Shown here: one piece after another, positions 36,547-56,140 of the stretch
How the letters are laid out: each line of letters begins with the position of its first letter
Numbering within the stretch: position 1 is the first letter of the stretch
Source: Planctomycetota bacterium
Lineage (GTDB): Bacteria; Planctomycetota; Phycisphaerae; Phycisphaerales; UBA1924
NCBI GenBank assembly: GCA_030950285.1
Contig: JAUZRR010000015.1
Location: 43,480-107,479 of the forward strand
Direction of reading: 5' to 3'
DNA: 64,000 bases
Made by a program: the position numbers and the translations under genes
Notes under the pieces: model-generated
What the model was told of the DNA's origin: nothing
The model's input: the letters and a program-made list of their open reading frames with translations, nothing else
Databases searched by the model: none

Positions 36547-36593
36547 TGGCCAGAGTTGGCCGTTTTCGTGCATGCTGTGGCTCGGAGTGGCCA
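36547..36593 (+). promoter_or_regulatory. Two copies of TGGCy-N5-TGGCC motif, 31 bp apart (candidate enhancer sites)
   Basis: 36547 TGGCCAGAGTTGGCCG and 36578 TGGCTCGGAGTGGCCA. Confidence 0.65.
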
Positions 36594-36640: not shown

Positions 36641-36669
36641 TTGACACGCGGGGCTCGAAGCACCACAAT
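36641..36669 (+). promoter_or_regulatory. Sigma70-like promoter TTGACA-N17-CACAAT
   Basis: Upstream of the pseudopilin-like gene at 36728. Confidence 0.6.
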
Positions 36670-36727: not shown

Positions 36728-37519
36728 ATGTTTGATCGGCTCTTCAACCAACACCAGAGTGCTCGGCCCGGTGCGGTCCGCGCGTTCTCACTCGTGGAGT
36801 TGCTGGTCGTCATCGCGGTGATCGCGATGGTCATAGGGCTCTTGCTGCCGGCACTCTCCCACAGCATCTCGGCGGCGAGGCAGTTCCGTTGCCAGGTCTC
36901 GCTCCGCAGCGTTGGGTTTGACTTCGGCGTCTTTGCCGACGACACGATGCACGGCGACCGAGGCAACGACGCACGGCTCGCTCCACGGTTCAAGCTCGAG
37001 ACATTTCAGGAGTCCGAGTACGGCATCGACGAGTTCTGGCGCTGGGGCGACAAGGACCGCCACGAGTTGCCGGACGAATCGAACAACGACCCCATGCGGT
37101 GCTCCGAGGTCGACGGCTACGTCACGCTGCAGCGGGGTTCGCCCTGCCGGTCCGGCGGAGTGGGACCGGCGGAGAACGTCTCGTACACGTTCAACGGCCG
37201 GCTCGATCGCGCCCCGGCCCGCGGGTCCAACGGCTCCCGCTGGATGCAGACGACCCTGACCGACGGCGTGGTGTCAGAGCCGATGATCCCGCTCGCCTGG
37301 GATGTGGACGGCGCGACCGCCGCGGCCCGCCGGGTCACGCCTGTGTTCTCTGCGCCGATCGCCGACAGCACCAATGGTCCCTTTGCCAGCGGGTCGCTCT
37401 GGTTCCCCGCGATGCGGCACAACGGCTCGCTCAACGTGCTGTTCACCGATCAGCACGTCGAGGCCTCGAAAGACCCGCTCGGCGAGAAGAGCTGGAAGTG
37501 GGGATTCCTGCCCCGCTAG
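36728..37519 (+). CDS. Type II pseudopilin-like protein (N-terminal methylation motif)
   Basis: AFSLVELLVVIAVIAMVIGLLLPALSHSISAARQFRC; C-terminal MRHNGSLNVLFTDQHVE as in planctomycete DUF1559-like proteins. Confidence 0.85.
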   Translation: MFDRLFNQHQSARPGAVRAFSLVELLVVIAVIAMVIGLLLPALSHSISAARQFRCQVSLRSVGFDFGVFADDTMHGDRGNDARLAPRFKLETFQESEYGIDEFWRWGDKDRHELPDESNNDPMRCSEVDGYVTLQRGSPCRSGGVGPAENVSYTFNGRLDRAPARGSNGSRWMQTTLTDGVVSEPMIPLAWDVDGATAAARRVTPVFSAPIADSTNGPFASGSLWFPAMRHNGSLNVLFTDQHVEASKDPLGEKSWKWGFLPR

Positions 37520-37555: not shown

Positions 37556-39094
37556 ATGTCGCTTCACACTCGATTCTTGCTGCTGCTCGGCCTTCTCGGG
37601 GCGGCGGTCATTGCCAACATCGGGGTGACGGTCTGGACCGTCGGGCTGCTCGACCGCGAGCAGCGGCGGCCGGTCGAGCAGATCGGTTCGGCGCTGGGGG
37701 TGCTCAATGACACCAAACGCATCTTGTGGGACCAAGCCGGGGAGTTCGGGCTCTTTGTCATCCCCGGCAGGGTCGCCGAGGCAACGCCCGGCGAGGGCCG
37801 CACGTTCTCCCCGGAACGGGTGCGGAAGTTCCGCGTGCTCGGCGAGAAGGCACTGGAACGAATCTCGGATCTCGATGATATTGACGCCTCGCTGGTCCGC
37901 GCCGGGGTGAACACCGCGGCCAATCTCCGGTCCAGGATCACAAGAGTGAACTCCGGGTTCGAGACTTATCTCGACAACGGCGACGAAGCCACGTGGCAAA
38001 GCTCGCTGGGTGAGCTCTACACACTGCACGAGTTCATCGAACGGCTGGAAGCGAGGCTCATCCACGAAACCAGGCTCTCCGCAGCACACGGAGCACAGAT
38101 GCAGCAACGGCTGATGGCGACACTCATCAGCTCGATCGTCTCGGTCGTCATTGTCCTGCTCGCCGCGGCGTGGCTCTTCCGCCGGTGGGTGCTGGTCCGG
38201 GTCAGTCGCCTCGGTGTGGCGGCCGAACGCATCGGACGGGGCGAGTTCGACCACCGCGTCGAGGTGCAAGGCAACGACGAGCTGGACCGGGTCGGCCAGC
38301 AGATCAACGATATGACCCAGACCATCAAAACCATGCAGGCCGAGCGGATCGATCGCGAACGCCTGGCGGCGATCGGGGACATGGGGCGCCGGCTTGCGCA
38401 CAACATCCGCAACCCGCTCGGGGGCATCCGCTCGCTGGCCGAGCTCTCGACACTCGAGCTGGACGAGGCGAGCCCGGTCCGAGAACATCAGCAGCGGATT
38501 ATTCGAACGGTCGACCAGTTCACCCGCTGGTTACAGGACCTGCTCAGCGTGTCCAACCCGCTCGCGGTGAGCATCGCCGAGGTCGTGGTCGAGCCGTGGT
38601 TGACCGAGTTGGTCGAATCCCACCGGGCACTGGCCGAGTCACGCGGCATCACGCTGACGCTCGATACGGCCGACGCCCCGACGGCCGCCCCCTTCGACCG
38701 CGGGCACCTCGAGCACGTCGTCTCGGCGCTGATTACCAACGCGATCCAGGCGTGCAGCCGGGGGGGGGCGGTCCAAGTCAAGGCGGTCGCCGAATCGTCC
38801 GATTGGAGCTTGTCGGTCCTCGATGATGGGGCGGGAATCCAACCCGAACATTTGCAGAGTATGTTTGCGCCTTACTTTACCACCAAACCGGGCGGAACTG
38901 GCATTGGTCTTGCACAAGCAAAGAGAGTGGTGATGCAGCATGGCGGCCGAATATGGGCTGAAAACCGCGGCGAAAGCGGTTTGCCGGGCTTTGGAGCGGC
39001 ATTGCACGTCGAGTTGCCCTTGCGATCAAGGGCGAAAATGGCCATGACTGGCCAGAGCAATGAGGCGGACTGTGGCCAGAATACTCCTGCTTGA
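37556..39094 (+). CDS. Membrane sensor histidine kinase
   Basis: Two TMs, HAMP, H-box GRRLAHNIRNPLGGIRSLAEL, HATPase ALITNAIQA...GAGIQPE...FTTKPGGTGIGLA. Confidence 0.9.
   Translation: MSLHTRFLLLLGLLGAAVIANIGVTVWTVGLLDREQRRPVEQIGSALGVLNDTKRILWDQAGEFGLFVIPGRVAEATPGEGRTFSPERVRKFRVLGEKALERISDLDDIDASLVRAGVNTAANLRSRITRVNSGFETYLDNGDEATWQSSLGELYTLHEFIERLEARLIHETRLSAAHGAQMQQRLMATLISSIVSVVIVLLAAAWLFRRWVLVRVSRLGVAAERIGRGEFDHRVEVQGNDELDRVGQQINDMTQTIKTMQAERIDRERLAAIGDMGRRLAHNIRNPLGGIRSLAELSTLELDEASPVREHQQRIIRTVDQFTRWLQDLLSVSNPLAVSIAEVVVEPWLTELVESHRALAESRGITLTLDTADAPTAAPFDRGHLEHVVSALITNAIQACSRGGAVQVKAVAESSDWSLSVLDDGAGIQPEHLQSMFAPYFTTKPGGTGIGLAQAKRVVMQHGGRIWAENRGESGLPGFGAALHVELPLRSRAKMAMTGQSNEADCGQNTPA
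39039..39078 (+). promoter_or_regulatory. Two further TGGC-N5-TGGCCA motif copies at kinase/regulator junction
   Basis: 39039 TGGCCATGACTGGCCA; 39063 AGGCGGACTGTGGCCA. Confidence 0.5.
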
Positions 39095-40523
39095 AGACGA
39101 AGAGACGTTGCGTTTCAGCGTGAAACGTGCGCTGGAGCTGGACGGCCACGACGTCACCGAGTTTGAGAGCACAGACGCCGCACACGCCCACGTCGCCCGT
39201 ACTGAGGTTGACGCGGTCCTGACCGACGTGAATCTCGCGGACAACAGCGACGGGATCGAGTTTGCCAAAGACCTCCGAAGCCGCGGCTTTGACGGCCCGA
39301 TCGTCGTCATGACCGGGTACGCCTCGGTCGAACAGGCGGTCGCCGCGATGAAGCTCGGCGTCGACGATTACCTGCAAAAGCCGGTCGTCCTCGAAGAGGT
39401 CACCATGCTCATCGCCAGGCTCCTGGAGGCTCGCAAACTCCGCACCAGGATCACACTCTACGAACGCCTGGACAGAGCCCGCGCGGACCAGCAATCCGTG
39501 CTCGGCGAGAGTAAGGCGTGGCGCAAAACACTCGAACTCGCAGAGCGCCTGGCATCGCTCCCCATTCCCGAGCAGGTCGGACGCGGCGAGAGCCTGCCGA
39601 CCGTGCTGATCCTCGGCGAAACCGGCGTCGGCAAGGGCGTCCTCGCAAGATACATCCACGAGTGCGCGCAGCGGGGTGGAGCAACTTCCGAGACACCGCT
39701 CGTCCATGTCAACTGCACTGCGCTCCCGCCGACCCTCATCGAGTCAGAGTTGTTCGGCCATGAGAAAGGGGCGTTCACGGACGCCAAGACAGCCCGAAAG
39801 GGGCTGTTCGAGATCGCCGGCGACGGAACGATTTTCCTCGACGAGATCGGCGACATGCCGCTCGAGTTGCAAGCGAAGATATTGACGGTTGTCGAGGAAG
39901 GCCGGTACCGGCGGGTCGGCGGCACCAAAGAACATACCGTCCGCGCGCGGATCATCACCGCGACAAACGTGGACCTCGAAGAGAAGGTTCGCCAGGGGAG
40001 TTTCCGGGCGGACCTCTTCTATCGTCTCAACACATTCACCGTGAGCATCCCCCCGCTCAGGGAACGAGAGGGCGACGCGCTGCGTATCGCAACAGCGATG
40101 CTCGAACGGCTCGCCAGACAGTACGGACGCGATGAGCTGACGCTCTCCGAAGGGGCCGCCCGTTCGATTGCTGGCCACGACTGGCCGGGCAATGTCCGTG
40201 AACTTATCAACATCTTGCAACGGGCGGCGCTGCTCGCTCGGGATACCGAGATTTCCGCTTCCGATCTTGGGCTTGCCTCAGCCGGTGCGGGGCCCGGAGT
40301 CGTACCGGAGTCCGGGCAAGCCGGAGAAATACGATTCGACTTTGAATCCGGAGAATGCTCGGCAGAGAATGTCGAGCGAGAACTTATAGTGCAAGCGTTG
40401 CAGCACACCTTCGGCAACGTCTCGAAGGCGTCCAGATTGCTCGGCATGCAACGGAGCAGCCTGCGATACCGCATCGATCGGTTCGGGCTGGAAAGCATGG
40501 TCAAGGAGCTGGCAAGCAAATGA
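39060..40523 (+). CDS. NtrC-family sigma54-dependent response regulator
   Basis: Receiver (DAVLTDVNL), AAA+ GETGVGKGVLARYIH, KGAFTDAKTARKGLFE, Fis-type HTH NVSKASRLLGMQRSSLRYRIDR. Confidence 0.92.
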   Translation: MRRTVARILLLEDEETLRFSVKRALELDGHDVTEFESTDAAHAHVARTEVDAVLTDVNLADNSDGIEFAKDLRSRGFDGPIVVMTGYASVEQAVAAMKLGVDDYLQKPVVLEEVTMLIARLLEARKLRTRITLYERLDRARADQQSVLGESKAWRKTLELAERLASLPIPEQVGRGESLPTVLILGETGVGKGVLARYIHECAQRGGATSETPLVHVNCTALPPTLIESELFGHEKGAFTDAKTARKGLFEIAGDGTIFLDEIGDMPLELQAKILTVVEEGRYRRVGGTKEHTVRARIITATNVDLEEKVRQGSFRADLFYRLNTFTVSIPPLREREGDALRIATAMLERLARQYGRDELTLSEGAARSIAGHDWPGNVRELINILQRAALLARDTEISASDLGLASAGAGPGVVPESGQAGEIRFDFESGECSAENVERELIVQALQHTFGNVSKASRLLGMQRSSLRYRIDRFGLESMVKELASK

Positions 40524-41986
40524 ACGCGTTACGGTATATCTCGATTGTGGGCCTCGCGGCCGGAATGACGCTGGCTTCGAGCGACGACAACTGTACCGTG
40601 GTCTTTGACAGCCTCGGCGACGCGGTCATCCGCCGCACCGATCCCGGGAATGACGGCGCGATGCACCCCGACGCGGTGCTGCCCGATATCGTCAGCATGT
40701 CGGTCTGCGCTTGGGAATCATTTGACCCCGTGAACGACCCGTACAACGGACAGGTCGCCAATGAAAACGGCGCGCACCTCTTCCGCCTTGACATTACTTT
40801 CGACGGGCTCGTCAACCCGGCGGGGAGGGTCCTGGGTTCCAACCCCGATCCGTTCGCCTATGGACCGTCGCCGGTGATCGGCTTTCTCGACATCGACATC
40901 GACGACGACGAAGATTCGGGCGGAGAACTCGGGACGGCTGCGGAGACGCGGTATCTGGCGAACATCTCACGATTCGGGATCCACCCCGACGGCTCATGGG
41001 GCGATCGCGCCGCGAAGAGCCGTGACGATCTCGACAACAGTTTTTACACCACGCCGCAGTACGAACGGTCCGGGGCCGACTTTGCCCTCGTGCTCTGCGG
41101 CTGTTCCGACCTGATCGTCGTCAGCGAGGGCGGCGACGGCAACGGGCTCTTCGACGCCGGCGAGACCTGGATCGTCCAGGCCCGTCTGTTCGAACGTTCA
41201 CAAGGATATCTCGAAGCCAGCGCCGCGTTCGGCGGCAGCGCCTCGGGGCTCTACGACCCGCTCATCGATGTAAGGTTCTCTCACGACACCAACACCGACC
41301 AGACTCTTGTTTCTATGGTCTGGGCGCTCGACATGATGGGCGCGGCCCAACTCACCGGCCAGCCAGAACAAGCGATCGACCTCAACGTTGCAAACCACAC
41401 CAGCGTGGTCGAGGCGCTCCAGGACATCATCGACGGGGCAGATACCGGCGGGTTCAGCGGCCCCGGTTGGGACCTGGTCGAACAATGGGAGGGCGAGACC
41501 GCCGACGATTATCTTGAGCCATCGGAGTGGCGGGTCACCGGGCTGTTCGGCGCGCCATATCTCGATCGGGCGGACGGGCTGTATGTGTGGACCGACACCG
41601 CCGGGGATGACGAACTCTTTGGCGACGGCAACGGGGACGAGTTCGTGACCAGAATGGACGAAACCCTCATCCGCTTGGCGGTCTACGGTGCCGACGGCAC
41701 CGCCGACGACGCCGACGGCGTGCTCGACGGCGTGTGGACGCTCGACAACCCGGGATTCAACTTCTCGTTCTTCGATCTCGACGGCACAATGAAGATCGAG
41801 ACCCAGGACATCGCCGGCATCCGTTCGCTCGGCGACTTCAACTGGGACGGCACAGTCAATACCCAGGACTTCATCGCCTATCTCAACGCGTGGGTCGCGT
41901 CCGATGCAACCGCCGACTTCAATCTCAACCAGACCGTCGACACGATCGACTTCGTGAGCTTCCTGAACGCGTGGGTTGCGGGATAA
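40520..41986 (+). CDS. Secreted protein with C-terminal dockerin-like repeats (GC-type dockerin family but without terminal Cys)
   Basis: Signal peptide; [54 protein letters not shown] overlap with upstream regulator. Confidence 0.8.
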   Translation: MNALRYISIVGLAAGMTLASSDDNCTVVFDSLGDAVIRRTDPGNDGAMHPDAVLPDIVSMSVCAWESFDPVNDPYNGQVANENGAHLFRLDITFDGLVNPAGRVLGSNPDPFAYGPSPVIGFLDIDIDDDEDSGGELGTAAETRYLANISRFGIHPDGSWGDRAAKSRDDLDNSFYTTPQYERSGADFALVLCGCSDLIVVSEGGDGNGLFDAGETWIVQARLFERSQGYLEASAAFGGSASGLYDPLIDVRFSHDTNTDQTLVSMVWALDMMGAAQLTGQPEQAIDLNVANHTSVVEALQDIIDGADTGGFSGPGWDLVEQWEGETADDYLEPSEWRVTGLFGAPYLDRADGLYVWTDTAGDDELFGDGNGDEFVTRMDETLIRLAVYGADGTADDADGVLDGVWTLDNPGFNFSFFDLDGTMKIETQDIAGIRSLGDFNWDGTVNTQDFIAYLNAWVASDATADFNLNQTVDTIDFVSFLNAWVAG

Positions 41987-43078: not shown

Positions 43079-44089
43079 TCACCGATTGGGGTACAGATCA
43101 ACCTCATTATTCCCGGTGATGCTGTAGAACCTGTCCCCCCAGAGACGATTCTTCACCGTCTCCCGGAGCGAGAGAATCTCAACGTGGCCGTCAACAAATG
43201 TGTAGTTCGCCTTGCCGATGCCGTGGTGGCGACCAACCGCGTTAAGCCGCGTCAGGGTGTTGTTGATCTCGTGCTTTCCGAGGTCCCCCTCGTCGAGCAG
43301 GTCGCCCCGCCGAGGATAGACGAAGCTAGGTCCGTCGCTGAGTGGCTCGTCATAGACCTTGACCCCGGCCGTGACCCCGATGAATGGCTCGATCGCACGG
43401 TGGCTCTGCATCTCGCCCCGCCGGCTTGATGTAATAGAGGTCCAACTGTCACGGTTGTCATAAAACTCGGTCGCCAGAATAACACCGGACGGCCCGCGAC
43501 GCGAGGAATCGATATCGCTCCCCCGGACGAACTGATTGCCCCGACCCCTGACCACCGACAGCTTGTTTCGCGGGAACACCGCCGCATTCCCTGTGTACGC
43601 CATCCGTGCGGCCTGACGGTCCTTGGGGAACCCCGAGGGCTGACTCGAGCCCAGCCCATTGACCTGCCCGTCTTCCCAATCCTCGGGGCTCGGGCCCGGA
43701 TTGGTACGCGGGGCACCACCGTTGAGCACCGTCGGGCACTGGAAGCTCTCTTCCGGCAAGCCGGCACCACCCGGCAAGCCGTCGTACAACGCGAAAGACC
43801 AGTGGACGTACCCGTTGGCGGGACGCGGGTGCGTGCCAGCCTGATCCTCCGGCCGCCAGGCCCCTGTGTCCTGATCGGCCCCGTACACATAAGAAAGAGG
43901 AAAGTAATCATAGCTCGATGTGTACATCGCCACCGACGCTGAAACCGAGCCGAGATTACTCGTACAGGTCGCCTGCTGCGCAACCGCCCTCGCCTTTCCG
44001 AGCGCGGGAAGGAGTATCCCGATCAACAACGCGATGATCGCGATCACCACCAGCAGTTCGATGAGTGTGAATCCGCGTCCATGTTTCAT
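43079..44089 (-). CDS. Type II pseudopilin-like protein (DUF1559-like)
   Basis: [48 protein letters not shown] near C-terminus. Confidence 0.88.
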
Positions 44090-44138
44090 GTTGAACTCCT
44101 GCGTGCTTTCCGCACATGACACATCGGAATGGTACTTC

Positions 44139-45650
44139 TCAGCAACCCGCCGTCCACAGGTTCAGGTACAAGATGAAATCAAGTGTGTTGACCAATCCGT
44201 CGCCGTTCATGTCGGCAGTCAGATCACCCGCAACCCAGGCGTTCAGGAACAAAAGCACGTCCTGGGTGTTCACGATGCCATCGCCGTTGAAGTCCGCAAC
44301 GCATGCGTTTCCGATAGTGAGCACAACACGGGACGCCTCGTAGGAAATCGAAAACCCGGCGGGCAGATTCTCCACCGCGAACACGCCCGAAACCGATCCG
44401 CCCTGGACAATCACGAACTCACCCGAATCCGGATTGAACCCGTTGATGAGTGAAACGTTCAACGTGCCGCCGAGCGAAATGGTGCCGGTCGCCGAGAGCT
44501 GGTCGTACTCGGTGCCGAGCCCCGACCCACCGAGTTCGATATTGAGCGCCCCGAGCGTCTGTGTGAAACTGCCGCTCACGGCGAGAACACCGGCACCGTT
44601 TCCGGGCGCCACGGCACCCTGGTTGAGCACATTGCCGGTCACGCTCCCCGAACCACTCATCGTGCCCAGCGGAGTCACAGTCACCAGGGGCGATTGCACC
44701 GCACCCCCGTTGGCCAGGGTCAACGTCCCAAGCGCCCGGTTGCCGACAAACACGCCGACAGTATCAACCACACTCCCGCCGTCGACGGTCACATCCCCGA
44801 GCGCGTCGTCGGCAATGTGGAGGCCGGGTGTAGTCAACAGCCCGCCGTTGGACACCATAAGAACACCCCGGCCGAAGTTGCCAACCGTGGTGACCGCGCC
44901 GCTGGCGAAGGTTGAGTTTGCGCCGCTGACCTCGAGTGTGCCGGAGGAGCCGACATCGTCACCGATCTTCGTGTTGAGGCCGACGCTCACCGTCCCCCCG
45001 GCCTCTACCCGCAGGATCCCGGTGCCGCCATTGCCGAGGAGTGCGCTGTTTTGAATGGTCCAGTTGCCACGGATGATCGCGTCACCATTCGACCCCGGTT
45101 CGTCGGCAATGAAGGTGATGAGGCTGCTCGCGGTGCAGCCAGCATTCAGCACGAAGAAGCCACTCCCGCCGTCTCCAATGATGAGGTCGCGTTGGTTCAC
45201 GAGAGACGCGCCGTTGCTCAATGTAAGATGGCCGGTTGATGGCGACAGCTTCCCGATACGGGCGAGCCCGGTGGTCGTGCTGAGTGTGCCGCCCTCCACC
45301 ACCAGCACGCCGACATCGATCATGCGGTCGCCAACGACGAGGTCGGCCATCGAGTAAGTCCTGCCAGTCAGTTGAAAGACCACATCGTCATTCTCGACCG
45401 ACAAGGCATTGTTGATGGGGCTAGATGCGAACTGCACGGTCTGCATCCCATTCGCATCAAACTTCGCCTCGTCCAGCACGCCCGGCACCCCGTTTGGGAG
45501 CCAGTTGAGCGGGTCGGCAAAGGTCACCCCGTCGCCCGCCGCGATCCATTCGCGCGTCACCTGCGCCGCCGCGGGGAATGCCGCACCGCTCAACGCAACG
45601 AGTGCCAGCGTCGAAACCAAACGTCGATTCATTCCTGTTGCCGTAATCAT
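44139..45650 (-). CDS. Autotransporter-repeat-like surface protein with GC-type dockerin tail
   Basis: Repeated beta-strand motifs ([29 protein letters not shown]); C-terminus [54 protein letters not shown]. Confidence 0.85.
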
Positions 45651-45700: not shown

Positions 45701-47866
45701 CTATGGATGGGAGGCCGTCGCCTGAGGCTTCTGCGCCCCCCACTCCTGCTTGTATTTCTCCGCCAGCGCTGCCACGGGCCGAGAGATCTGTGCAACTCCT
45801 CTTTCGTATCCCAACTCCGCCAGCGTGTCGCCAGCAATCGCCTCGAACATCTCGATCGACTCGTCGGGCATCTGCGTCCGCCAGTCCCGCAACCCCGGCG
45901 TCGGAGCCAGCCACGAGGCATTGGCCGATCGACCGGTTGCCGGTTCGCTCCGCCCCTGATAAAACGCTGCCATGCCCGCGTCGGGTGCAAGACCAAGGTA
46001 CTGACATATCTCGGCACACTGCCCGCTTGGATCAGCGACCAACTGTTCGTACCGATACTCGCGATACACGTGATCTCCAAGCTTACGGCCGTCCTCTATC
46101 CCGGATCGAACATGCCAGCGCCACCACACAGCGGTAGCCGCGACGGGGTCGATCTCCCACAGCCGATGGCGGCCCGCCGCTCGCCGGGCCTTCGGCCACG
46201 TGAGCATCGAAAGACACACATCACGGCCGTCGCGGATCAGGTGAATCACACGCGACGCCGGGCATATCTTGTGCAACCTGGAAAGATTCCGCAGGTAACC
46301 TCCGGTCGACTTGTCACCAACGTGTGCCTTCGCTCTCTCTCGCCGGTACAGGTCATACACAAGACGAACAAAGGTTGCATAATCGGTTGGTTGGCTCGCC
46401 AGCAACTTTTCAAGACATTCTCGCTCTGGAGCCATTCTTACAAAGCGCCGGTCCGCGTACAGCCTGTCCAGCATGTCCGCACCGACAATGCCCCGCCGCG
46501 AGACATCCCTCCGCCGCTTCCCGTACTTGGTGATCCAGTGCGTCTCGTGCGCCATCGCCAAGTCCCGGTGGGCATCCAGCATCCGCTCAAGCATTGTTGT
46601 TCCTGAACGCGGGCAGCCAACAACAAACACCAAAGGGCACGCGGCTTGATCAGACGCCGGACGCTGTTGGGCAACAGCGCGAGACGAAGCAACATTGATG
46701 ACGGGTTGCTGCACTTCCTTCTCGATACAGGGTGCCGTTCCGATCGTTGTGAGAATCCTGCGGGCCAGCCCCGACCACTTCGGCCAGAACGCATAGAGCA
46801 CCGCGAGCCGCAGCCGGGTCGCATCGAGGTAAGCCGCGATTCGTGCTGCGTCCTCGCGGACCCGCTCATTCCCATACGCGTGAAGGAACGCACGCGCCCC
46901 GCCCATTGCTGCATCTGCGTTGCAGAATCCCTGCAAGCATCGGAGTTCCAGGTGCCCCAGCATGTTGGCGACATCGAGCGCGGGCTCGCCGGCTGCAAGC
47001 GTGTCAAAGTCCAGAATACCAACGCGGCCGGTGGGGCCGATCACGATCTGCTTGTCGTAGAAATCACGGTGAACAACGGTCTCTCGGCCCGGCGTCTCTC
47101 GCAATGCATCAAACACGCTAAGCGCCGCTGAGGACAACGCCTCGCTCAACTCCGGGAGAAATGCCCGAGCGCAGGAGAGCCTCTCCTCCAACATGCCAAT
47201 CTCGGCACCCGCGTCGTGAACATCCATCCACGCCGGCGGCTTCTGGTGCATCACTCGCAACGCCCGCCCCGCTTCAGCACACGCCGAGACAAGAGCAGCA
47301 TCGCTACTCGCCGGAATATCAGCCATGCAGGTACCCTGCAACTCGCGGGTGAGCAGCACGCCCGACTCCTCATCGGCATCCTCAATCACTGCGATATCAA
47401 ACGCCCGATTGTTCATGCGCTCCATGAGCCCGTACAATTTCATAATCTTCCCGAGCCGGGATGGACGCAACACCTTCGCGAAGTGCGCCACGCCGTTGCC
47501 TTGCAACCTTATAACCGCACGCCGACCCGGACGGTGCGATACAAGGGACGCGTCAGGCCGCTGCAGCAACTGCTCCAAGGCAGGGAGTTTGGGATCCGCC
47601 CCATTCGGTTGGAGAGCAAGAAGGACGCCCCCTGACCGAACCAACAGCCCGCCGACGCTCTCGAGCTTCTGCCCGAGCTTCTGTGTTTCCTTCTCGTCGG
47701 CGTACCACATCGCGGGCACGGATATCCCCGCAGCATCCGTATACTGCATCGCCAGCGACGACTCGTGCCGCGGCCAAACTCTGCGCAGATGCAACGGGCT
47801 GTCTAGTCCGTGCGCCACGGCTTCGGCCGCGGGCAGCACCACTTTGGAGGGCAGCGGGCTACACAT
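45701..47866 (-). CDS. APH-like phosphotransferase fused to sulfotransferase
   Basis: N-terminal HRDFYDKQIVI...VGILDFDTLAAGEPALDVANMLGH; C-terminal VVGCPRSGTTMLERMLDAH...VIHLIRDGRDVCLSML; ORF extends to 47899. Confidence 0.85.
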   Translation of the reverse strand: MCSPLPSKVVLPAAEAVAHGLDSPLHLRRVWPRHESSLAMQYTDAAGISVPAMWYADEKETQKLGQKLESVGGLLVRSGGVLLALQPNGADPKLPALEQLLQRPDASLVSHRPGRRAVIRLQGNGVAHFAKVLRPSRLGKIMKLYGLMERMNNRAFDIAVIEDADEESGVLLTRELQGTCMADIPASSDAALVSACAEAGRALRVMHQKPPAWMDVHDAGAEIGMLEERLSCARAFLPELSEALSSAALSVFDALRETPGRETVVHRDFYDKQIVIGPTGRVGILDFDTLAAGEPALDVANMLGHLELRCLQGFCNADAAMGGARAFLHAYGNERVREDAARIAAYLDATRLRLAVLYAFWPKWSGLARRILTTIGTAPCIEKEVQQPVINVASSRAVAQQRPASDQAACPLVFVVGCPRSGTTMLERMLDAHRDLAMAHETHWITKYGKRRRDVSRRGIVGADMLDRLYADRRFVRMAPERECLEKLLASQPTDYATFVRLVYDLYRRERAKAHVGDKSTGGYLRNLSRLHKICPASRVIHLIRDGRDVCLSMLTWPKARRAAGRHRLWEIDPVAATAVWWRWHVRSGIEDGRKLGDHVYREYRYEQLVADPSGQCAEICQYLGLAPDAGMAAFYQGRSEPATGRSANASWLAPTPGLRDWRTQMPDESIEMFEAIAGDTLAELGYERGVAQISRPVAALAEKYKQEWGAQKPQATASHP

Positions 47867-49154
47867 CGAGAGTCTCCGTCTGCATGACTCGATCGGCATG
47901 ATCTAACAACGCCGCCACGCGAGCGGGCCACGCCTTGACCCGCAAGCGGAACGGCTCCGGCGCTCTCATAAGAAGCGCTCCTGCAGTGAATACTCGCACC
48001 CCAACGGGATCCTCAAACCCCATCGCCCGCCAGTACGCCGCGGCGAGCTCGTTCGCGATGGCAGTCGCCCGAACGAACGGCACCCGGCCTTCCGTCGCAA
48101 GCGCGAGCAATCCGGCAGCGAAGGAACCAATGTCCATGCTTGGGTTGCCGTAGGCGGCACGATCAAAGTCCAACACCGTAACACCATCGCTGTGTACAAC
48201 AACCTGGTCCGCGGAAAAATCACCGTGCACAACCTGCGACCGCCAGTTCAACTCGAGCACCGCACCCTGCACCGTGTCGCGCAGCTCTGCAGCCCGAACG
48301 CCGAGATCCGGATCGACCGCGGCAACCGCATCGCATGCCGCCGCCACACCACGGCAATAGTCGCTCGCCGAGTACATCGCGTTCAGTCGCGGACGTTGCC
48401 GGTGCAGAGTCGCAAGGGCGCCAGCGACATGCTCGAGCAATGGACCCGGATCATCATTGCCGCAGAGCATGTCCTCGAGTAGCTGCCCGTCGACCCACCG
48501 GTGCGCCAGCGCACTATACCGTTTCGAGTCCCCGACCACTCGCGGCACGCGGAGATCGCCCTGATCCTTGAACGCCCACGCCCGCTGTCGAATGTCCTCG
48601 TACTGCGCCTCGGGATACAACCGGAGTACAACCGCCTCGCCATTCCCGTTTTCGAGCTTTCCAACAAAGCGGCGTTCGGGCTTGTATCGAAGTGTTGTCG
48701 CCAAAACGCCGTGCAGATGGGGGCTGGCCGGGAGAATCCGCCGCATCCGAGGCGGCGTCCGCTCGCCCTCATACAACTTTCGAAGAGATCTAATCTCGTA
48801 ATCGTTCGGATACGCAAAGATGGCAATGCCGTCTTCTGGAACTGTGTGCAACCCGGCACCCAACGCACCTCGCACCTCCATCTTCAGACGAGCGTTGGCG
48901 ACCTTGACTATCTGATCCTCCGCGTGACACCTCGCATACACCCCTGTGTGGGTGTCGCCAACCTGCACAGAGTACGCGACGAGGCAGCTCTTGTGCGGCT
49001 TATATCGCACATAACGTGCCTGCACCGACCGAATATCGTGTTCCGGACACAACACCCGCAGTGTCGCGAGAAATGCATCCTCGTCGAGCAGGGTCGCGAG
49101 CCCCCGCAACCCGGCATCGTGCCGGACAAGATTGGTATCGGCTTTCCTAAGCAT
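47859..49154 (-). CDS. APH-like phosphotransferase family protein
   Basis: VVHGDFSADQVVVHSDGVTVLDFDRAAYGNPSMDIGSF; start overlaps upstream stop by 8 bp. Confidence 0.85.
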   Translation of the reverse strand: MLRKADTNLVRHDAGLRGLATLLDEDAFLATLRVLCPEHDIRSVQARYVRYKPHKSCLVAYSVQVGDTHTGVYARCHAEDQIVKVANARLKMEVRGALGAGLHTVPEDGIAIFAYPNDYEIRSLRKLYEGERTPPRMRRILPASPHLHGVLATTLRYKPERRFVGKLENGNGEAVVLRLYPEAQYEDIRQRAWAFKDQGDLRVPRVVGDSKRYSALAHRWVDGQLLEDMLCGNDDPGPLLEHVAGALATLHRQRPRLNAMYSASDYCRGVAAACDAVAAVDPDLGVRAAELRDTVQGAVLELNWRSQVVHGDFSADQVVVHSDGVTVLDFDRAAYGNPSMDIGSFAAGLLALATEGRVPFVRATAIANELAAAYWRAMGFEDPVGVRVFTAGALLMRAPEPFRLRVKAWPARVAALLDHADRVMQTETLDV

Positions 49155-50979
49155 CGATGCTCTCATACTCCGCGGACTCGTCCGAATGCAGATTGTGAAC
49201 CCGGGCATACGCGCCATTTGCAGCAAGGAGCGCCGCGTGGCTTCCACGCTCTACGATCTCGCCGCCGGCCATATACACAATCTGGTCGGCGTTCGTGACC
49301 GCACGAAGATCATGCGTGATAATGAAACAGACCCGATTCTTGGAGAGACCCCGGACCGCCATCCCGATCATCTCCGCGCTCTCACGATCCAGGCTCGCCG
49401 TGGGTTCATCGAGCACGATGATCGGCGCATTACGAACAACCGCTCGCGCGATCGCGATGCGCTGACGCTGACCCTGGCTCAGCGTGCAGCCGCGCTCACC
49501 GACCGGTGTGTCGTAGCCGCCTGGAAGGGCACTGATAAACTCATGAGCACACGCGACAGTCGCGGCCTCGACGATCTGCTCATCAGTTATGTCCTTTCTT
49601 CCGAAGGTAATATTTTCCCCGATGCTCGCGGCAAAGAGCGTTGATTCCTGCGGCACCACCGCAACCCGGCTCCTCCACGATGCCACCCGGAACTCACGAA
49701 TATCCATCCCGTCTGCCGTAATACGACCGTCTACCGGGTCGTAGAGCCGGAGGAGAAGACTCATCAGCGTGGACTTCCCAGCCCCGGAGGGACCCACGAT
49801 TGCGACGACCGCGCCGGCGCGCGCTTCGAGCGTGAGATTACTGATCGCAAGCTTGCCCGGCTCATACGCAAACCGAACGTTCTCAAACGCGACCCGAGCA
49901 ATCTGCGTCGGTGCGTCCACGGCGTGTGGGACGTCCTCGATCGCGGGTGCGGTGTCGAGAAGCTCCACGATCCGCTCGGCCGACGCGAGCGCTTTGGCGG
50001 TCCGGCCCGAGTACTTCGCCACATTCCGGATCGGCCGGGTCATGTTCTTGTGGTAGAAAAAGAACACCAGCAACGTAGTAACCTGCAGTTCACCCTGCAT
50101 CACGAGGCGAGCGCCGTACCACAGCATGATCGCGGTGCCCAACGCGATGAACACATCGGCCGCACCGAGAAGCTGAGCCGAGAGCCGCTTGCCCTTCACA
50201 CCCTCCTTGAGGCTCGACATGTTGCGGGCACCAAACCGGGTGTTGTGGGTATCCTCGCCACCGAGCGACTGCACGACCCCGATCGAGCCGATGGCTTCGG
50301 TCGCGATTGCTCCCATCTCGCCGTGGCGTTCACGTTCTCGCCGGGCGGTAGATCGGATTTTCTTCCCGATCCGCTGCGTCGAGAACCAGAACAAAGGTAA
50401 CACCGCAAACGCGACAAGCGCGAGGCGCCACTCGATGAACAGCATCACTACCGCGACACCAACTACCGTCAGCAGATGCGCCACCAGCGGCAGGACCGCA
50501 GTTGACACAACCTCCTGCAGGCGACCGATGTCGCTGGTCAGCCTGGTAGCGATATCGCCCGCCCGGCGCCGATTATAAAATGAAAGCGACAGCCGTTGGA
50601 TATGCGCGAAGAGATCCGCACGAACGTCGGTAAGGACAAGGTTGCCTGCGAGCGCAAATCCGACCCGCCGCATGTACGCCGCCCCCGCCCGGGCCGCGAC
50701 GATCAGGACCAGTGCAATCGCACACACCGTCAGCACCGTCATCGGCGCCAACCTGTCAAGCACCGGCACGCCTGTTGTTGATGCGCCGGTCTTGTGCAGC
50801 GCCGCGTCAAAGATAAACTTCAACGGCCAGGGCTCGAGCAGCCGCAGGGCGATCTCCGCGAACATTGCAAACGAGGACCCGCCGATGATCTTCCAACGCG
50901 TTCGCATATAAGGAAAGAACCGTCTCACCACAGCGGCCGCGGGGATATGCTCTTTGTCGCTGTTCTCGTCCTGTGTCAT
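49147..50979 (-). CDS. ABC exporter, fused permease/ATPase (MsbA-like)
   Basis: Six-TM domain; VGPSGAGKSTLMSLLLRLYDP, CTLSQGQRQRIAIARA, IIVLDEPTASLD. Confidence 0.93.
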   Translation of the reverse strand: MTQDENSDKEHIPAAAVVRRFFPYMRTRWKIIGGSSFAMFAEIALRLLEPWPLKFIFDAALHKTGASTTGVPVLDRLAPMTVLTVCAIALVLIVAARAGAAYMRRVGFALAGNLVLTDVRADLFAHIQRLSLSFYNRRRAGDIATRLTSDIGRLQEVVSTAVLPLVAHLLTVVGVAVVMLFIEWRLALVAFAVLPLFWFSTQRIGKKIRSTARRERERHGEMGAIATEAIGSIGVVQSLGGEDTHNTRFGARNMSSLKEGVKGKRLSAQLLGAADVFIALGTAIMLWYGARLVMQGELQVTTLLVFFFYHKNMTRPIRNVAKYSGRTAKALASAERIVELLDTAPAIEDVPHAVDAPTQIARVAFENVRFAYEPGKLAISNLTLEARAGAVVAIVGPSGAGKSTLMSLLLRLYDPVDGRITADGMDIREFRVASWRSRVAVVPQESTLFAASIGENITFGRKDITDEQIVEAATVACAHEFISALPGGYDTPVGERGCTLSQGQRQRIAIARAVVRNAPIIVLDEPTASLDRESAEMIGMAVRGLSKNRVCFIITHDLRAVTNADQIVYMAGGEIVERGSHAALLAANGAYARVHNLHSDESAEYESIDA

Positions 50980-52139
50980 ACCGCAGCCCCCCCGCGATTC
51001 GTCGCCCGCGCGAGGATGCTCTCGGCAACGAGTTCCCACTTGTGTTCCTGCTCTGCCGTCTGTCGCGCCCGCTCGCCGAGTCGTTCACGCAGCGCGGCGT
51101 TTGTCGCAAGCCGACGCAACGCGGCGCACAGCCCGTCAACGTCATCCGGCTCGAACAGCACCCCGGTCTTGCCGTCGAGAATAACCTCCTGAACCTGCCC
51201 GCATGCGCTCGCCACGATCGCCAGGCCCGCCGCCATATATTCAAAGAGCTTGAGCGGCGAAAAGTAGAACGACTCAAGCCGCGGATAGGGCGCGACCGCG
51301 ATATCCATCGAAGCCAAAAGCCCCGGCACACGATCCGGCGTCACCGACCCGGCCAGCACAACCGCCGCGGCCGCCTCTTTACAATCTTCCTCAATGCGCT
51401 CGAGCATCGGCCCGTCACCAACAATGAGTAACCGTACCGGCAGCCCCTCTTTCCAGAGACGAAGAAACGCCGCAACCAGCCGCTCCACCCCGTGCCAGGG
51501 CCGCAGCGATCCGACAAACCCGATGGTCACAATGCCCGCGTCTGCGGGGAGTTCCTTTGCAACATGCGATCCGAACCGTGCTGTATCCACACCGTTTGGC
51601 ACAGCGTGAACTCGCTCGGGGCACGCGACCCGGTCGCGGAGCCACGCCGCGAGTGGCGCCGAGACCGCCAGCAACGATCCGGCGCTGTCCCAACACCGCT
51701 GCGCAGCTGCTTCTGCTTCCTCGACCATGTGCAGTTTTCGGTATCGGGCTTGCTCGTCAACCAACGGCGCATTCACCTCGAGCACGCCCGGCAGGCCCGC
51801 GCTCGCCGCGTACTCCATCGCGGCATACGACCACAGCGCGTGCCGCTCGTACACCATGTCCAACTCGGGCTCAGCCGCCAGCGCGTCCCGGAGCGCGACG
51901 TTGGCATCAAGCAGAAACCGCTCACGTTCCTGGGTCTGTCCGCTCGGCGCCCGGTCGAGCCGGCGCAGTGCGACTGACTCGAGCCCGCGCGGGGTATCTC
52001 CTCCAACACGCCGCGCAAACAGCACAACCTCGACGCCCTTGGCAATCAGCGCACGCAGCACCTCCTGGACGTGGATCGACCCGCCCTTGCTCCCGTACAC
52101 GGGCACGCCGGGATCGGTACAGACGTACGCCAGCCGCAT
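50976..52139 (-). CDS. Glycosyltransferase family 4-like
   Basis: GGSIHVQEVLRAL, FVGSLRPWHGVERLV, SPLKLFEYMAAGLAIVAS. Confidence 0.9.
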   Translation of the reverse strand: MRLAYVCTDPGVPVYGSKGGSIHVQEVLRALIAKGVEVVLFARRVGGDTPRGLESVALRRLDRAPSGQTQERERFLLDANVALRDALAAEPELDMVYERHALWSYAAMEYAASAGLPGVLEVNAPLVDEQARYRKLHMVEEAEAAAQRCWDSAGSLLAVSAPLAAWLRDRVACPERVHAVPNGVDTARFGSHVAKELPADAGIVTIGFVGSLRPWHGVERLVAAFLRLWKEGLPVRLLIVGDGPMLERIEEDCKEAAAAVVLAGSVTPDRVPGLLASMDIAVAPYPRLESFYFSPLKLFEYMAAGLAIVASACGQVQEVILDGKTGVLFEPDDVDGLCAALRRLATNAALRERLGERARQTAEQEHKWELVAESILARATNRGGAAV

Positions 52140-53347
52140 CACACCACCCCCGTCACGCCCGCGGCCCGGAAAACCTCGCGGATCTGCACCGTGTTCCGCG
52201 TGAGATCAAACGAATCCTCGATCAACACCCGCGCCTGCTTTGCGAATCCTGCCGCCAGCGCCGGGGCATCGAGCACCCGCCCAAGAGCGCCGGCAAGAGC
52301 CTGCGGGTCCCGCTCGGGAACAAGCAACCCGGTCTCCCCGTCGCGCACCACCTCCGGTATCCCCGTCACCGGCGTCGACACACAGGGCGTCCCCAATGCC
52401 ATCGCTTCGAGCAGCACCGTCGGCAGCCCGTCGCGGTTGCCATCGTTGCCGACGACGCACGGTGCGGCAAACACTGCCGCGTCTGTTATCAGCGATATAA
52501 CATCCTCTCGCGACAGTGCGCCGGCGAGCTCGACACAGTCCCCAAGATCGAGCTCCCCACGCAATGTCGCGAGCGAATCCGCCTCTTCACCGTCGCCCAC
52601 GATCACACAACGAAACTCACGGCCGGCGTCTCGCATCAAAGCGCAAGCTCGCAAAAGATCGTCAAACCCCTTCTTCTCGACAAGCCGTCCCACGCCGAGG
52701 ATAAGGCCAGCAGTGCGCGGCCGATCGCAAAACGGAAAGCACCCAAGATCGAGCCCGTTGTACACCTTGTGCACCGGGCACGCATCAGCCCCCAGCACCC
52801 CCGCCAGATGCCTGACATTGAAATCGCTCACCGTCACAAGCCCGGCCGCGTCGCGAGCCATGCGGCACAGCCTTGCCTGGTCCACCGACTCGTGAAAGAT
52901 GTCCTTTGCGTGAGCTGTGAACGTGTACCGCACCCCCGCCTGCGCCGCAGCCAGCCGCGCCGTCACCGTGGCTTCGGTCGCAAAGTGAGCGTGCAGATGC
53001 GTGATTCCCCGCTCGCGTACCGCCTGGGCGACTTGCCCGGCAAGCCACAACGACCACGGACGCTTCGCGTCCCGATAGTTGAAAACTCGCTCTTCCGGAT
53101 CAAGAAACATCTCGGCGTCGCGCATCGCCCTTGCGAACGCGTGAAGCTCAACAGGCTCCTCGGTCAGGTACGTCACGCGAGCCTTCACACGCGAAACATC
53201 GGCGTGCTGCGGCCCGGACTCGGCGGGCCGAAGCGAAAAAATCTCAACCTCGAGACCCGCAGCCTCGTGCGCCAGGATCTCGTTCAGAATGAACGTCTCC
53301 GACAAACGCGGATATCTCTTGAGCACATAGCCCACACGGTCAGACAT
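52139..53347 (-). CDS. Glycosyltransferase family 4-like
   Basis: YPRLSETFILNEI, HAHFATEATVTA, GVGRLVEKKGFDDLL, EAMALGTPCVSTPVTGIPE. Confidence 0.92.
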   Translation of the reverse strand: MSDRVGYVLKRYPRLSETFILNEILAHEAAGLEVEIFSLRPAESGPQHADVSRVKARVTYLTEEPVELHAFARAMRDAEMFLDPEERVFNYRDAKRPWSLWLAGQVAQAVRERGITHLHAHFATEATVTARLAAAQAGVRYTFTAHAKDIFHESVDQARLCRMARDAAGLVTVSDFNVRHLAGVLGADACPVHKVYNGLDLGCFPFCDRPRTAGLILGVGRLVEKKGFDDLLRACALMRDAGREFRCVIVGDGEEADSLATLRGELDLGDCVELAGALSREDVISLITDAAVFAAPCVVGNDGNRDGLPTVLLEAMALGTPCVSTPVTGIPEVVRDGETGLLVPERDPQALAGALGRVLDAPALAAGFAKQARVLIEDSFDLTRNTVQIREVFRAAGVTGVV

Positions 53348-54665
53348 GCCGAGCACCCTTCCCGTTCCGGACCACGATTCCCGGGAACTCGGACGAATCG
53401 CCACGACCCGCACGCAGCTCGTCAAGCAGGCTCGGGAGCCGGCTCAGGCCGCGGAAATCGAGCACCGTTTCTGCCGGACGCACAGGCGCATCCCCGCTGC
53501 ACATCCACGCCGAAAGCGAATCACCGTCGAGCTGATCGGGATGCAGCATGTCAAGCAAGCCCAACTCGGCGAACCGCTCGGCACGGATGATCTGCTCACG
53601 CCGAGGTGTCACCCGAGGCACGATCAACGCCCGCTTCTGCAACGCGAGCACCTCGCACACCGAGTTGTACCCGCCCATGCTGATCACACGATCGGCACAG
53701 CACAAAAGCGGCTCGGGATCGGTCACAAACTCGATCAGCCGCATATCGGGGCGGTTCGCAACCATCGCGTTGAGCAACGCCCGGTCTTCGCCGTCCATCA
53801 ACGGCCCCGTCACAAGCACGCCCCCGCTCCCCGCGGGGAGCTCGGACTGCAAGAAACTCAGCGCCAAAGGCAACCCGTCACGCCCGCCACCGATCGAGCA
53901 CAGCGTCAGCGAGCCGCCCGGGACATCCATGATCTCCGAGAGCGACGGCGACTGCTGCGGCCGAGAACACGAAGCGCTCACCGCCTCGTCCCTCGGGTTC
54001 AGATACCCCGTGTAACGGATCTTGGCCGCGATGTCGGCCGGGATCGAATACTCCTCTTCGATCGCGTACACGTCCCGGTCGCCGTACACCCAGACCCGGT
54101 CGTAATACTCGCGGATCACCCCGATCGTGTTGTCGCGAGCCCACTCACGCCGAACGGTTTCCGGCTCATCAAGAATGTCGCGGATACCCACCACCAGCCG
54201 CGCCCGCGTGTGCTTCTTCAGCCACGCCAGCGACGGCGCCAACTCGCCCAGCACGCCCAGCGGGAGTTTGTCAACAATGAGCACGTCGGGCCGGTACGAC
54301 CGGATCGCGCTGAGAATCAGATCGCTCCGCAACGAGATCAAATCGTCGGTCTCGATGCCCAGCGAACGGGTTTCGTACTTCCCCGCCGCGTCCTTGCCGA
54401 GCGACGGCAGCGTCACACAATCGACACCCTCGGGCAATCCAAACGTCGCCGTCTCGCGCAGCCCCGAAAGCAAAAGGATGCTCGGCGCCGGCTCGATCGC
54501 AGACAACGATCGGCTGATCAGCAGATTGCGACGCAGGTGCCCAAGCCCCTGCGCATCGTGCGAATAGAACGCGATCCGCAGCGGAGAAGAGCCCCGCGAT
54601 CCCTCGCCGTTCAGCGACTCGGCGAGATCAAGCCCGCGAACAAGTTCATCCTCAAAGAACATCAT
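53340..54665 (-). CDS. Predicted glycosyltransferase (COG4671-like, MurG/GT28-like fold)
   Basis: YSHDAQGLGHLRRNL, DVLIVDKLPLGVLGEL, VISMGGYNSVCEVLALQKRALIVPRV. Confidence 0.85.
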   Translation of the reverse strand: MMFFEDELVRGLDLAESLNGEGSRGSSPLRIAFYSHDAQGLGHLRRNLLISRSLSAIEPAPSILLLSGLRETATFGLPEGVDCVTLPSLGKDAAGKYETRSLGIETDDLISLRSDLILSAIRSYRPDVLIVDKLPLGVLGELAPSLAWLKKHTRARLVVGIRDILDEPETVRREWARDNTIGVIREYYDRVWVYGDRDVYAIEEEYSIPADIAAKIRYTGYLNPRDEAVSASCSRPQQSPSLSEIMDVPGGSLTLCSIGGGRDGLPLALSFLQSELPAGSGGVLVTGPLMDGEDRALLNAMVANRPDMRLIEFVTDPEPLLCCADRVISMGGYNSVCEVLALQKRALIVPRVTPRREQIIRAERFAELGLLDMLHPDQLDGDSLSAWMCSGDAPVRPAETVLDFRGLSRLPSLLDELRAGRGDSSEFPGIVVRNGKGARHV

Positions 54666-54827
54666 GGGAAATCACCCGAGAGCCAAGACGTCTTGGCCTG
54701 TACATATGGATTGACGACAGCGTGAGAGAGAACCCCGCACACCTACAACAAGCCCCGCTCGGGAGAACCCCGCCGGCCTGAAACACTGCAAAAACTTGTC
54801 ACAGTCCTGACACATACTTCACGAGAC

Positions 54828-54843
54828 TGCAACATTGATGCCA
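54828..54843 (-). promoter_or_regulatory. Sigma54 promoter for glycosyltransferase operon
   Basis: Minus strand TGGCATCAATGTTGCA; GG-N10-GC, 10 of 12 defined consensus positions. Confidence 0.75.
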
Positions 54844-54883
54844 GCACAGAAATGTGCCTTTACGACCCTTTGCAGGGGCCTCT

Positions 54884-54899
54884 TGGCCTGTACTGGCCA
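54884..54899 (-). promoter_or_regulatory. TGGCC-N5-TGGCCA candidate enhancer site
   Basis: TGGCCTGTACTGGCCA centred about 75 bp upstream of the predicted start at about 54817. Confidence 0.65.
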
Positions 54900-54934
54900 C
54901 CCGAGCGGTGGTTGGAAGCCAGGTCCCCGAAACG

Positions 54935-55918
54935 TCAGCTCCCGTCCTCACCCACCTCGCGGCTCCACCACGCTTCACACGCCGCCGCGACCTCGGAAAC
55001 CTCCGCCGAGATCGAATCGCAACTCGGCGGATACCCCATATCGGCAAGCTCCTTGCCCGCGAGAGCCTCGAAAAGCTCACGCTCCCGCGCCGACATCTGC
55101 GTCCGCCAGTCGCGCACGCCCCGAGTCGGAGGCAGCCACGCCGCCTTGGCGCTCAGCCCGGGCTCGTGGCGGGTACGCCCCTGGTGGTATTCCAGCATCG
55201 CCGCGTCGAACGGCAACCCGAGAAACTCGGCCATCTCCCGCAACGATGCCTCCGGGTCCTCCACCAGCCGCTCGTAGTTGAACTCACGGTACCTGTCCGT
55301 CGGCAACGCCCGCCCCTGCGCGCACCCGAGCCGAATATCCCGCCTCCACCACAGCGCCCCGATCGCGATCGGCTCCTCTTTCCACAGCTCCAGCTTCGCC
55401 GCCCCCTTGCCCCAGTCCTTGATCGACAACGCCACATCCCGACCGTCACGCACCAGGTGCACAAACCGCGCCCAAGGCAACAACGCGTGCAGCCGTTCCA
55501 GATGACGGCAGTACCCCGGGCTCTTCTCCCCGGCCAGCGGTTTGTCCTGCGATGCCGCCAGCTCGTCGTACACCGCCGAGACAAACTCGCTGTAACGCCC
55601 CCCGCGCTCCACCGCCCGCGCGACCGCCGCGTCGGAAAGCCCCAGCCGCGAAAACCGCGGGTGTGTACACGCCGTTTCGATGACTTTCTGCGACAGCGGC
55701 GGGTCAAACCCCACCGGCTCACCCTTGATCGCCCGCGTGATAAACAGCGAGTCGTACGCGCACGTCAGCGACGGGTGCGCATCGAGCATCCGCTGCAACA
55801 TCGTCGTCCCCGAACGCTGGCACCCCACCACAAACATGTACGGGTTGTGCCGCCCCGCCTTCCCCCGAGGGGCCGCGCCATGGTCCGAGAAAGATTCAGC
55901 TACCGCCTCGGATTTCAA
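54935..55918 (-). CDS. Sulfotransferase
   Basis: FVVGCQRSGTTMLQRMLDAHPSL (5'-PSB), FVHLVRDGRDVALSI (3'-PB); TTG start with GGGAG upstream. Confidence 0.88.
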   Translation of the reverse strand: MKSEAVAESFSDHGAAPRGKAGRHNPYMFVVGCQRSGTTMLQRMLDAHPSLTCAYDSLFITRAIKGEPVGFDPPLSQKVIETACTHPRFSRLGLSDAAVARAVERGGRYSEFVSAVYDELAASQDKPLAGEKSPGYCRHLERLHALLPWARFVHLVRDGRDVALSIKDWGKGAAKLELWKEEPIAIGALWWRRDIRLGCAQGRALPTDRYREFNYERLVEDPEASLREMAEFLGLPFDAAMLEYHQGRTRHEPGLSAKAAWLPPTRGVRDWRTQMSARERELFEALAGKELADMGYPPSCDSISAEVSEVAAACEAWWSREVGEDGS

Positions 55919-56015
55919 CGCACTTCTCCCTCAGCAAAGACAAAGGGCACCCGAAGAACCACGGGGGCTCAGACACCGGATCGCGCTCCGCACACAACGA
56001 TCGCCCTCTCCACCA

Positions 56016-56031
56016 TGCAATCGCCGTGCCG
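56016..56031 (-). promoter_or_regulatory. Sigma54 promoter for sulfotransferase gene
   Basis: Minus strand CGGCACGGCGATTGCA; 11 of 12 defined positions of TGGCACGN4TTGCA. Confidence 0.8.
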
Positions 56032-56093: not shown

Positions 56094-56140
56094 TGGCTCT
56101 CTCTGGCCACTGCACACGCCACCCTGGCGAGTTCTGGCCA
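56094..56140 (-). promoter_or_regulatory. Two TGGCy-N5-TGGCCA candidate enhancer sites, 31 bp apart
   Basis: 56094 TGGCTCTCTCTGGCCA; 56125 TGGCGAGTTCTGGCCA, about 97 and 128 bp upstream of predicted start. Confidence 0.7.

Follow-up and report, generated by a model that had tools for sequence, protein, structure and literature searches.

Predicted sigma54 promoters of the sulfotransferase-glycosyltransferase cluster

Which regulatory system controls the sulfotransferase (ST) gene and the adjoining glycosyltransferase (GT) operon in the window, that is, the whole stretch of 64,000 nucleotides of planctomycete DNA analyzed here? The original prediction proposed a near-consensus sigma54 promoter for each transcription unit. 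The predicted promoters and the genes of the cluster, whose starts are also predictions, are as follows.

56016..56031, minus strand: predicted sigma54 promoter (-24/-12) of ST, CGGCACGGCGATTGCA; position kept in G542, G470, G518 and G426
54828..54843, minus strand: predicted sigma54 promoter (-24/-12) of the GT operon, TGGCATCAATGTTGCA; position kept in the same four genomes
54935..55918, minus strand: sulfotransferase ST (PF13469)
53340..54665, minus strand: glycosyltransferase GT, GT28-C-like, first gene of the operon
52139..53425, minus strand: glycosyltransferase group 1
50976..52142, minus strand: glycosyltransferase group 1
49147..51039, minus strand: ABC transporter, membrane and ATPase domains fused
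47859..49247, minus strand: APH-family phosphotransferase
45701..47899, minus strand: APH-sulfotransferase fusion
44139..45650, minus strand: T5SS/PEP-CTERM-associated repeat protein with GC-type dockerin (homologue in G426 and G518 has its own sigma54 site)
43079..44122, minus strand: pseudopilin-like protein, last conserved gene of the cluster

Both sites were found on the minus strand exactly where predicted, with GG-N10-GC intact and with matches at 11/12 (CGGCACGGCGATTGCA) and 10/12 (TGGCATCAATGTTGCA) of the defined consensus positions. Both are intergenic, one located 5' of ST (54935-55918) and the other 5' of the first GT gene (53340-54665), and no sigma70-like promoter was found around them. 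The genome carries rpoN (PF04552, E=7.9e-57), the C38 gene including the RpoN box ARRTVAKYR. The enzyme set of the cluster, with two sulfotransferase domains, three glycosyltransferases, one ABC transporter and two APH-type domains, suggests that its product is probably a sulfated surface glycan or glycoprotein.

Sigma54 sites were counted by pattern searches for a GG-N10-GC core flanked by TGGCAC-N5-TTGCA-like sequence. When GG/GC had to be intact, one site with at most one mismatch and four with at most two were counted in the window, against 0.2 and 3.5 in shuffled sequence. In the whole 3.1 Mb genome, 12 matches with at most one mismatch were detected, against 17 for a reversed control pattern. 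The bare consensus matches of the two sites are thus no better than chance, and the counts in window and genome were rejected as promoter evidence. About 8 of the 12 genomic matches lie directly upstream of genes, as called with a simple coding model made in this analysis, a hint that some of them are in use. GG and GC are kept in all 21 promoters collected, but GG/GC was itself the criterion of selection.

Several other matches deserve mention. The two-mismatch match at 38899-38914 (plus strand) was rejected as a promoter, as the letters there only encode a histidine kinase motif, the GTGIGLAQ box; the box reads similarly in L249, and its codons will yield false sigma54 matches elsewhere. In the same genome as the window, one-mismatch sites are located 89 and 48 bp upstream of DnaK-like and ClpB-like genes (L005, C14:141344-141359; L010, C36:19411-19426), in agreement with the sigma54 control of chaperone genes that is among the sigma54 promoters widely predicted in Planctomycetota by promoter matrices (PMC12316311). 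A two-mismatch sigma54-like site (L096:7394-7409, contig C12) is situated 49 bp upstream of the gene preceding the second exosortase of this genome, with no palindrome of the kind described below at two or fewer mismatches nearby.

Conservation of the two predicted promoters among relatives

In a survey of 163 genomes of the family, GT was found in seven, and ST adjoins GT in five of these, G000 (the source of the window), G542, G470, G518 and G426, with identity to the window proteins of 57-69% for ST and 48-64% for GT. In all five ST-GT genomes, which are related and thus not independent samples, ST and GT are each preceded by a correctly oriented GG/GC site with at most two mismatches. Where the GT locus has no ST (G435 and G516), and in the outgroup G410, neither a sigma54 site with at most two mismatches nor a palindrome is present near GT. 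After pairwise alignment, identity between the ST-GT intergenic regions was no higher than that of shuffled sequence, indicating that the sites have not simply persisted from a recent common ancestor. It is by position and conservation, with recurrence at both places in four further genomes, that the two sites exceed the chance level. In G426 and G518, a third sigma54 site precedes a T5SS-repeat gene that is divergent from ST. The homologue of this gene in the window (44139-45650) is located within the GT operon, and control of the T5SS-repeat gene appears, from the sites and the gene arrangement, to be kept despite the altered gene order.

A palindromic candidate operator in phase with the promoters

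Comparison of the window with G426 brought out TGGCCA-N4-TGGCCA, a palindrome of 16 bp on the upstream side of the promoters; most of the conserved sigma54 sites in the five ST-GT genomes have one. The candidate operators in the window, to which no strand is assigned, are listed below.

56125..56140: candidate operator/enhancer palindrome of ST, TGGCCAGAACTCGCCA, one mismatch, 93 bp upstream of -24
56094..56109: second, weaker candidate enhancer palindrome of ST, TGGCCAGAGAGAGCCA, 62 bp upstream of -24 and 31 bp from TGGCCAGAACTCGCCA
54884..54899: candidate operator/enhancer palindrome of GT, TGGCCAGTACAGGCCA, one mismatch, 40 bp upstream of -24
39039..39054: palindrome at a kinase-regulator junction, TGGCCATGACTGGCCA, 0/12 mismatches, 33 bp upstream of regulator start 39072
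36547..36562: palindrome upstream of the pseudopilin-kinase-regulator operon, TGGCCAGAGTTGGCCG; recurs in G001
36578..36593: second palindrome upstream of the same operon, TGGCTCGGAGTGGCCA, 31 bp from TGGCCAGAGTTGGCCG; recurs in G001

Under a 14-position pattern, only three copies with at most one mismatch exist in the entire genome, all within the window, at 56125 (ST), 54884 (GT) and 39039 (regulator). At three or fewer mismatches the window has 12 palindromes, against 4.3 in shuffles. One more copy, at 40172, is coding sequence for GHDWPGN, a motif of the regulator, and was rejected as an operator. Outside the window, a palindrome is located 51 bp upstream of the sigma54 site preceding an LEPR/FG-GAP surface protein gene (contig C28), and the sigma54 site preceding a GC-dockerin protein gene on contig C9 has a weaker palindrome 80 bp 5' of it. 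Among the relatives, the palindromes at ST and GT of G470 are weak (three mismatches).

For 12 promoters, the distance from palindrome to -24 averages about 65 bp and is clustered with a period of 10.4-10.5 bp (R=0.85, p=0.0005, Monte Carlo with the period scanned). A case found later is on the same phase: in G471, an FG-GAP/GC-dockerin gene divergent to the regulator operon has a one-mismatch sigma54 site and, 83 bp from it, a palindrome. Family genomes that bear the regulator described below contain 44 palindromes versus 23 for the reversed control, and those without it 19 versus 41 (p=2e-4). In regulator genomes, 6/34 palindromes have a sigma54 site with at most two mismatches no more than 160 bp away, against 0/19 elsewhere, and 18 of the 19 palindromes in regulator-less genomes are intragenic. 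Against the explanation favored below, it counts that, in relatives, a nearby promoter is missing at many of the palindromes.

Intergenic near-perfect palindromes with no sigma54 site nearby were observed in relatives at L173, L175, L188, L191-L193 and L197-L199, several of them adjoining PEP-CTERM or GC-dockerin genes. At two other loci, L177:2133-2340 (plus strand, G022) and L180:1928-1800 (minus strand, G427), a palindrome and a sigma54 site are followed about 100-190 nt on by CCTCCTC stretches and a strong hairpin whose tail is T-rich. The fold z-scores are -6.9 and -6.3, respectively, and these loci are possible sigma54-driven small RNAs.

Covariation of the candidate operator with the recognition helix of a regulator

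The third palindrome in the window lies between a kinase and a regulator gene, which belong to the following group.

36641..36669, plus strand: predicted sigma70-like promoter of the regulator operon, TTGACA-17-CACAAT; same arrangement in G001
36728..37519, plus strand: pseudopilin-like gene heading the kinase-regulator operon
37556..39094, plus strand: sensor histidine kinase (HAMP, HisKA, HATPase)
39060..40523, plus strand: NtrC-type response regulator (receiver, sigma54-interaction AAA+, HTH_8), recognition helix MQRSS; start 39072 favored by alignment
40520..41986, plus strand: exported GC-type dockerin protein, downstream of the regulator

All three regulator domains (PF00072, PF00158 and PF02954) score above cut-off. 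The GAFTGA loop of NtrC-type regulators contacts sigma54. In the 39060 regulator this AAA+ loop reads GAFTDA instead, invariant in 12 aligned orthologues, and the change is listed against the favored explanation.

Orthologues of the 39060 regulator (about 49-75% identical) were found in 65 of the 163 family genomes. At all 20 loci examined, the pseudopilin-like gene, the kinase and the regulator stand together, with the dockerin-protein gene near in 19. A scan of contigs with the regulator alignment was dominated by generic AAA+ motifs, and yielded an orthologue with the palindrome in L249, an uncultured Phycisphaerales bacterium. The regulator was not detected in G518, a genome 70% complete, and is present in its genus sister G517.

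A junction palindrome (at most one mismatch of 12 positions, near -30 from the start) is carried by 41 of 50 orthologues with the helix MQRSS and by none of 14 others, one of which, in G534, was unparsable owing to an internal stop. The association is strong (Fisher p=1.7e-8), even if this and the other p-values overstate independence, the genomes being related. Regulators with the helix LNRGA keep the GGC-N8-GCC frame in 4/6 cases, with mostly TGA/TTA..TCA inside and not CA..TG. At L226 (G439), where the helix is MNRSS, TTCAGGCGA is found at the junction and again 5' of a sigma54 site that matches the consensus perfectly; the L226 site reads TGGCACGAGTCTTGCA, and TTCAGGCGA is perhaps a third operator type.

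Since the palindrome tracks the recognition helix of the regulator, and does so at the regulator's own gene, it is tied to the 39060 regulator. The operator shared with the ST and GT promoters, together with the helix covariation, makes this regulator very probably the activator of both. The original proposal of sigma54 promoters ahead of ST and the GT operon, with the 39060 regulator as their likely activator, thus gains support from cross-genome conservation, the shared operator and helical phasing, and for the regulator also from the covariation of recognition helix and operator.

Sigma54 control of the regulator operon itself was considered and rejected, as no GG-N10-GC is present downstream of 36547/36578 and a sigma70-like site is found instead. 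The pair of palindromes and this sigma70-like promoter, in an arrangement that recurs in G001, make autoregulation of the operon likely, with either sign.

Proposed circuit and alternative explanations

We consider it highly likely that kinase (37556-39094) and regulator (39060-40523) form a two-component system whose regulon, transcribed with sigma54, consists of cell-surface genes. The kinase would phosphorylate the NtrC-type regulator, which in its activated form would bind the TGGCCA-N4-TGGCCA palindromes, in helical phase about 40-95 bp upstream of the -24/-12 promoters, and its AAA+ domain would open sigma54-RNA polymerase there. ST (from 56031-56016) and the GT/ABC-transporter operon (from 54843-54828) would thereby be switched on, as would at least two unlinked surface-protein genes (contigs C9 and C28), and the regulator would probably bind its own operon too. 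Other predicted targets seem to be FG-GAP/GC-dockerin, T5SS-repeat and LEPR-type surface proteins. Sites, conservation, phasing and operator-helix covariation are read from the sequence; phosphorylation, binding, transcription, product and signal we infer. A wider model is possible though rather doubtful: an undescribed sigma54 two-component regulon, widespread in this planctomycete family (placed in Phycisphaerales by its one named member), would coordinate a GC-dockerin surface coat with a sulfated-glycan pathway, the kinase-linked pseudopilin and dockerin protein would report the state of surface assembly, and in some species the operator would also drive short, terminator-ended sRNA-like transcripts.

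The genome has three further strong sigma54 activators (C31, C45 and C60), and one of these, rather than the 39060 regulator, could activate the sigma54-dependent promoters, the palindrome serving a different DNA-binding protein. The ST promoters of G542 and G518, which have no good palindrome, would fit such an arrangement. We regard it as unlikely, because the palindrome follows both the presence and the recognition helix of the 39060 regulator and sits at its gene.

Alternatively, the genes might form a genuine PrsK/PrsR system too divergent for the family models to recognize, given the same architecture of kinase and NtrC-type regulator, sigma54, an operator about 63-65 bp upstream and surface genes, and given an exosortase and a PrsT-like TPR protein (212.8 bits versus a cut-off of 312.2) in the window. 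The original prediction had indeed suggested a PrsK/PrsR-type system, an assignment that the models do not support: the regulator scores 329.9 bits against TIGR02915 (PrsR; cut-off 502.6), no better than against AtoC, NtrC and FlgR, and the kinase 68.9 bits against TIGR02916 (PrsK; cut-off 300). The operator is not the PrsR motif, which Haft et al. found only in Proteobacteria (PMC1569441). The targets found are GC-dockerin, FG-GAP and glycan genes and not PEP-CTERM genes. No palindrome with at most one mismatch exists at the exosortase locus of the window, the search for PEP-CTERM genes with a matching promoter yielded none, and the several PEP-CTERM genes near palindromes in relatives, set aside as targets, have no sigma54 site there. 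Membership in Prs is therefore very improbable.

That GC-rich DNA yielded both sites by chance, the consensus being short, agrees with the consensus counts, no higher than in shuffles or the reversed control, and is hardly credible given an expected rate of about 0.007-0.009 sigma54 sites per upstream region and the recurrence of both sites, in the same orientation and position, in four genomes with otherwise unrelated ST-GT intergenic DNA.

Comparison with known systems

The proposed two-component regulon of the 39060 protein would pair a planctomycete regulator with an operator and a recognition helix, its targets being predicted at named positions and each step being testable. In a phylum with little experimental data on regulation, it offers a worked example of an operator covarying with its regulator: MQRSS goes with TGGCCA half-sites and LNRGA with GGCTNA-like ones. 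It also points to a hitherto undescribed circuit controlling the bacterial surface. In open-licence papers we found no report of the operator TGGCCA-N4-TGGCCA, this regulator group or this target set. The passages of PMC12316311 consulted make no mention of this regulator or its operator, and the words "sulfotransferase" and "PEP-CTERM" are absent from its text.

The system had been envisaged as a planctomycete counterpart of Prs. Membership fails, as shown above, while a functional parallel may hold, in the form of sigma54-dependent two-component control of the surface with a similar enhancer-promoter layout. As in PrsK/PrsR/PrsT, a kinase and an NtrC-type regulator are combined with sigma54 promoters at surface-protein genes, additional operator copies are present and glycosyltransferases are close by. 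The operator spacing is also alike, with a mean of 62.8 bp in Prs and about 65 bp to -24 here; the PrsR motif of Proteobacteria is 17 nt long, ends in TTTACA and precedes the sigma54 site by 62.8 +/- 10.6 bp (PMC1569441). Of the phyla that have PEP-CTERM proteins, Haft et al. (2006, PMC1569441) found surface proteins under sigma54/PrsR control in Proteobacteria alone, and pepA of Aquincola is RpoN-dependent (PMC9850573). In contrast to Prs, the operator here is TGGCCA-N4-TGGCCA, a palindrome lies at the kinase-regulator junction, and the predicted targets are GC-type dockerin, FG-GAP or T5SS-repeat proteins, or glycan enzymes.

As a kind, the sigma54 two-component regulon is well known. The present system resembles NtrC-family sigma54 regulons in its receiver-AAA+-HTH_8 regulator and in upstream palindromes phased with -24/-12 promoters, and differs from such regulons in general by a new operator and target set and by the GAFTDA loop of the AAA+ domain.
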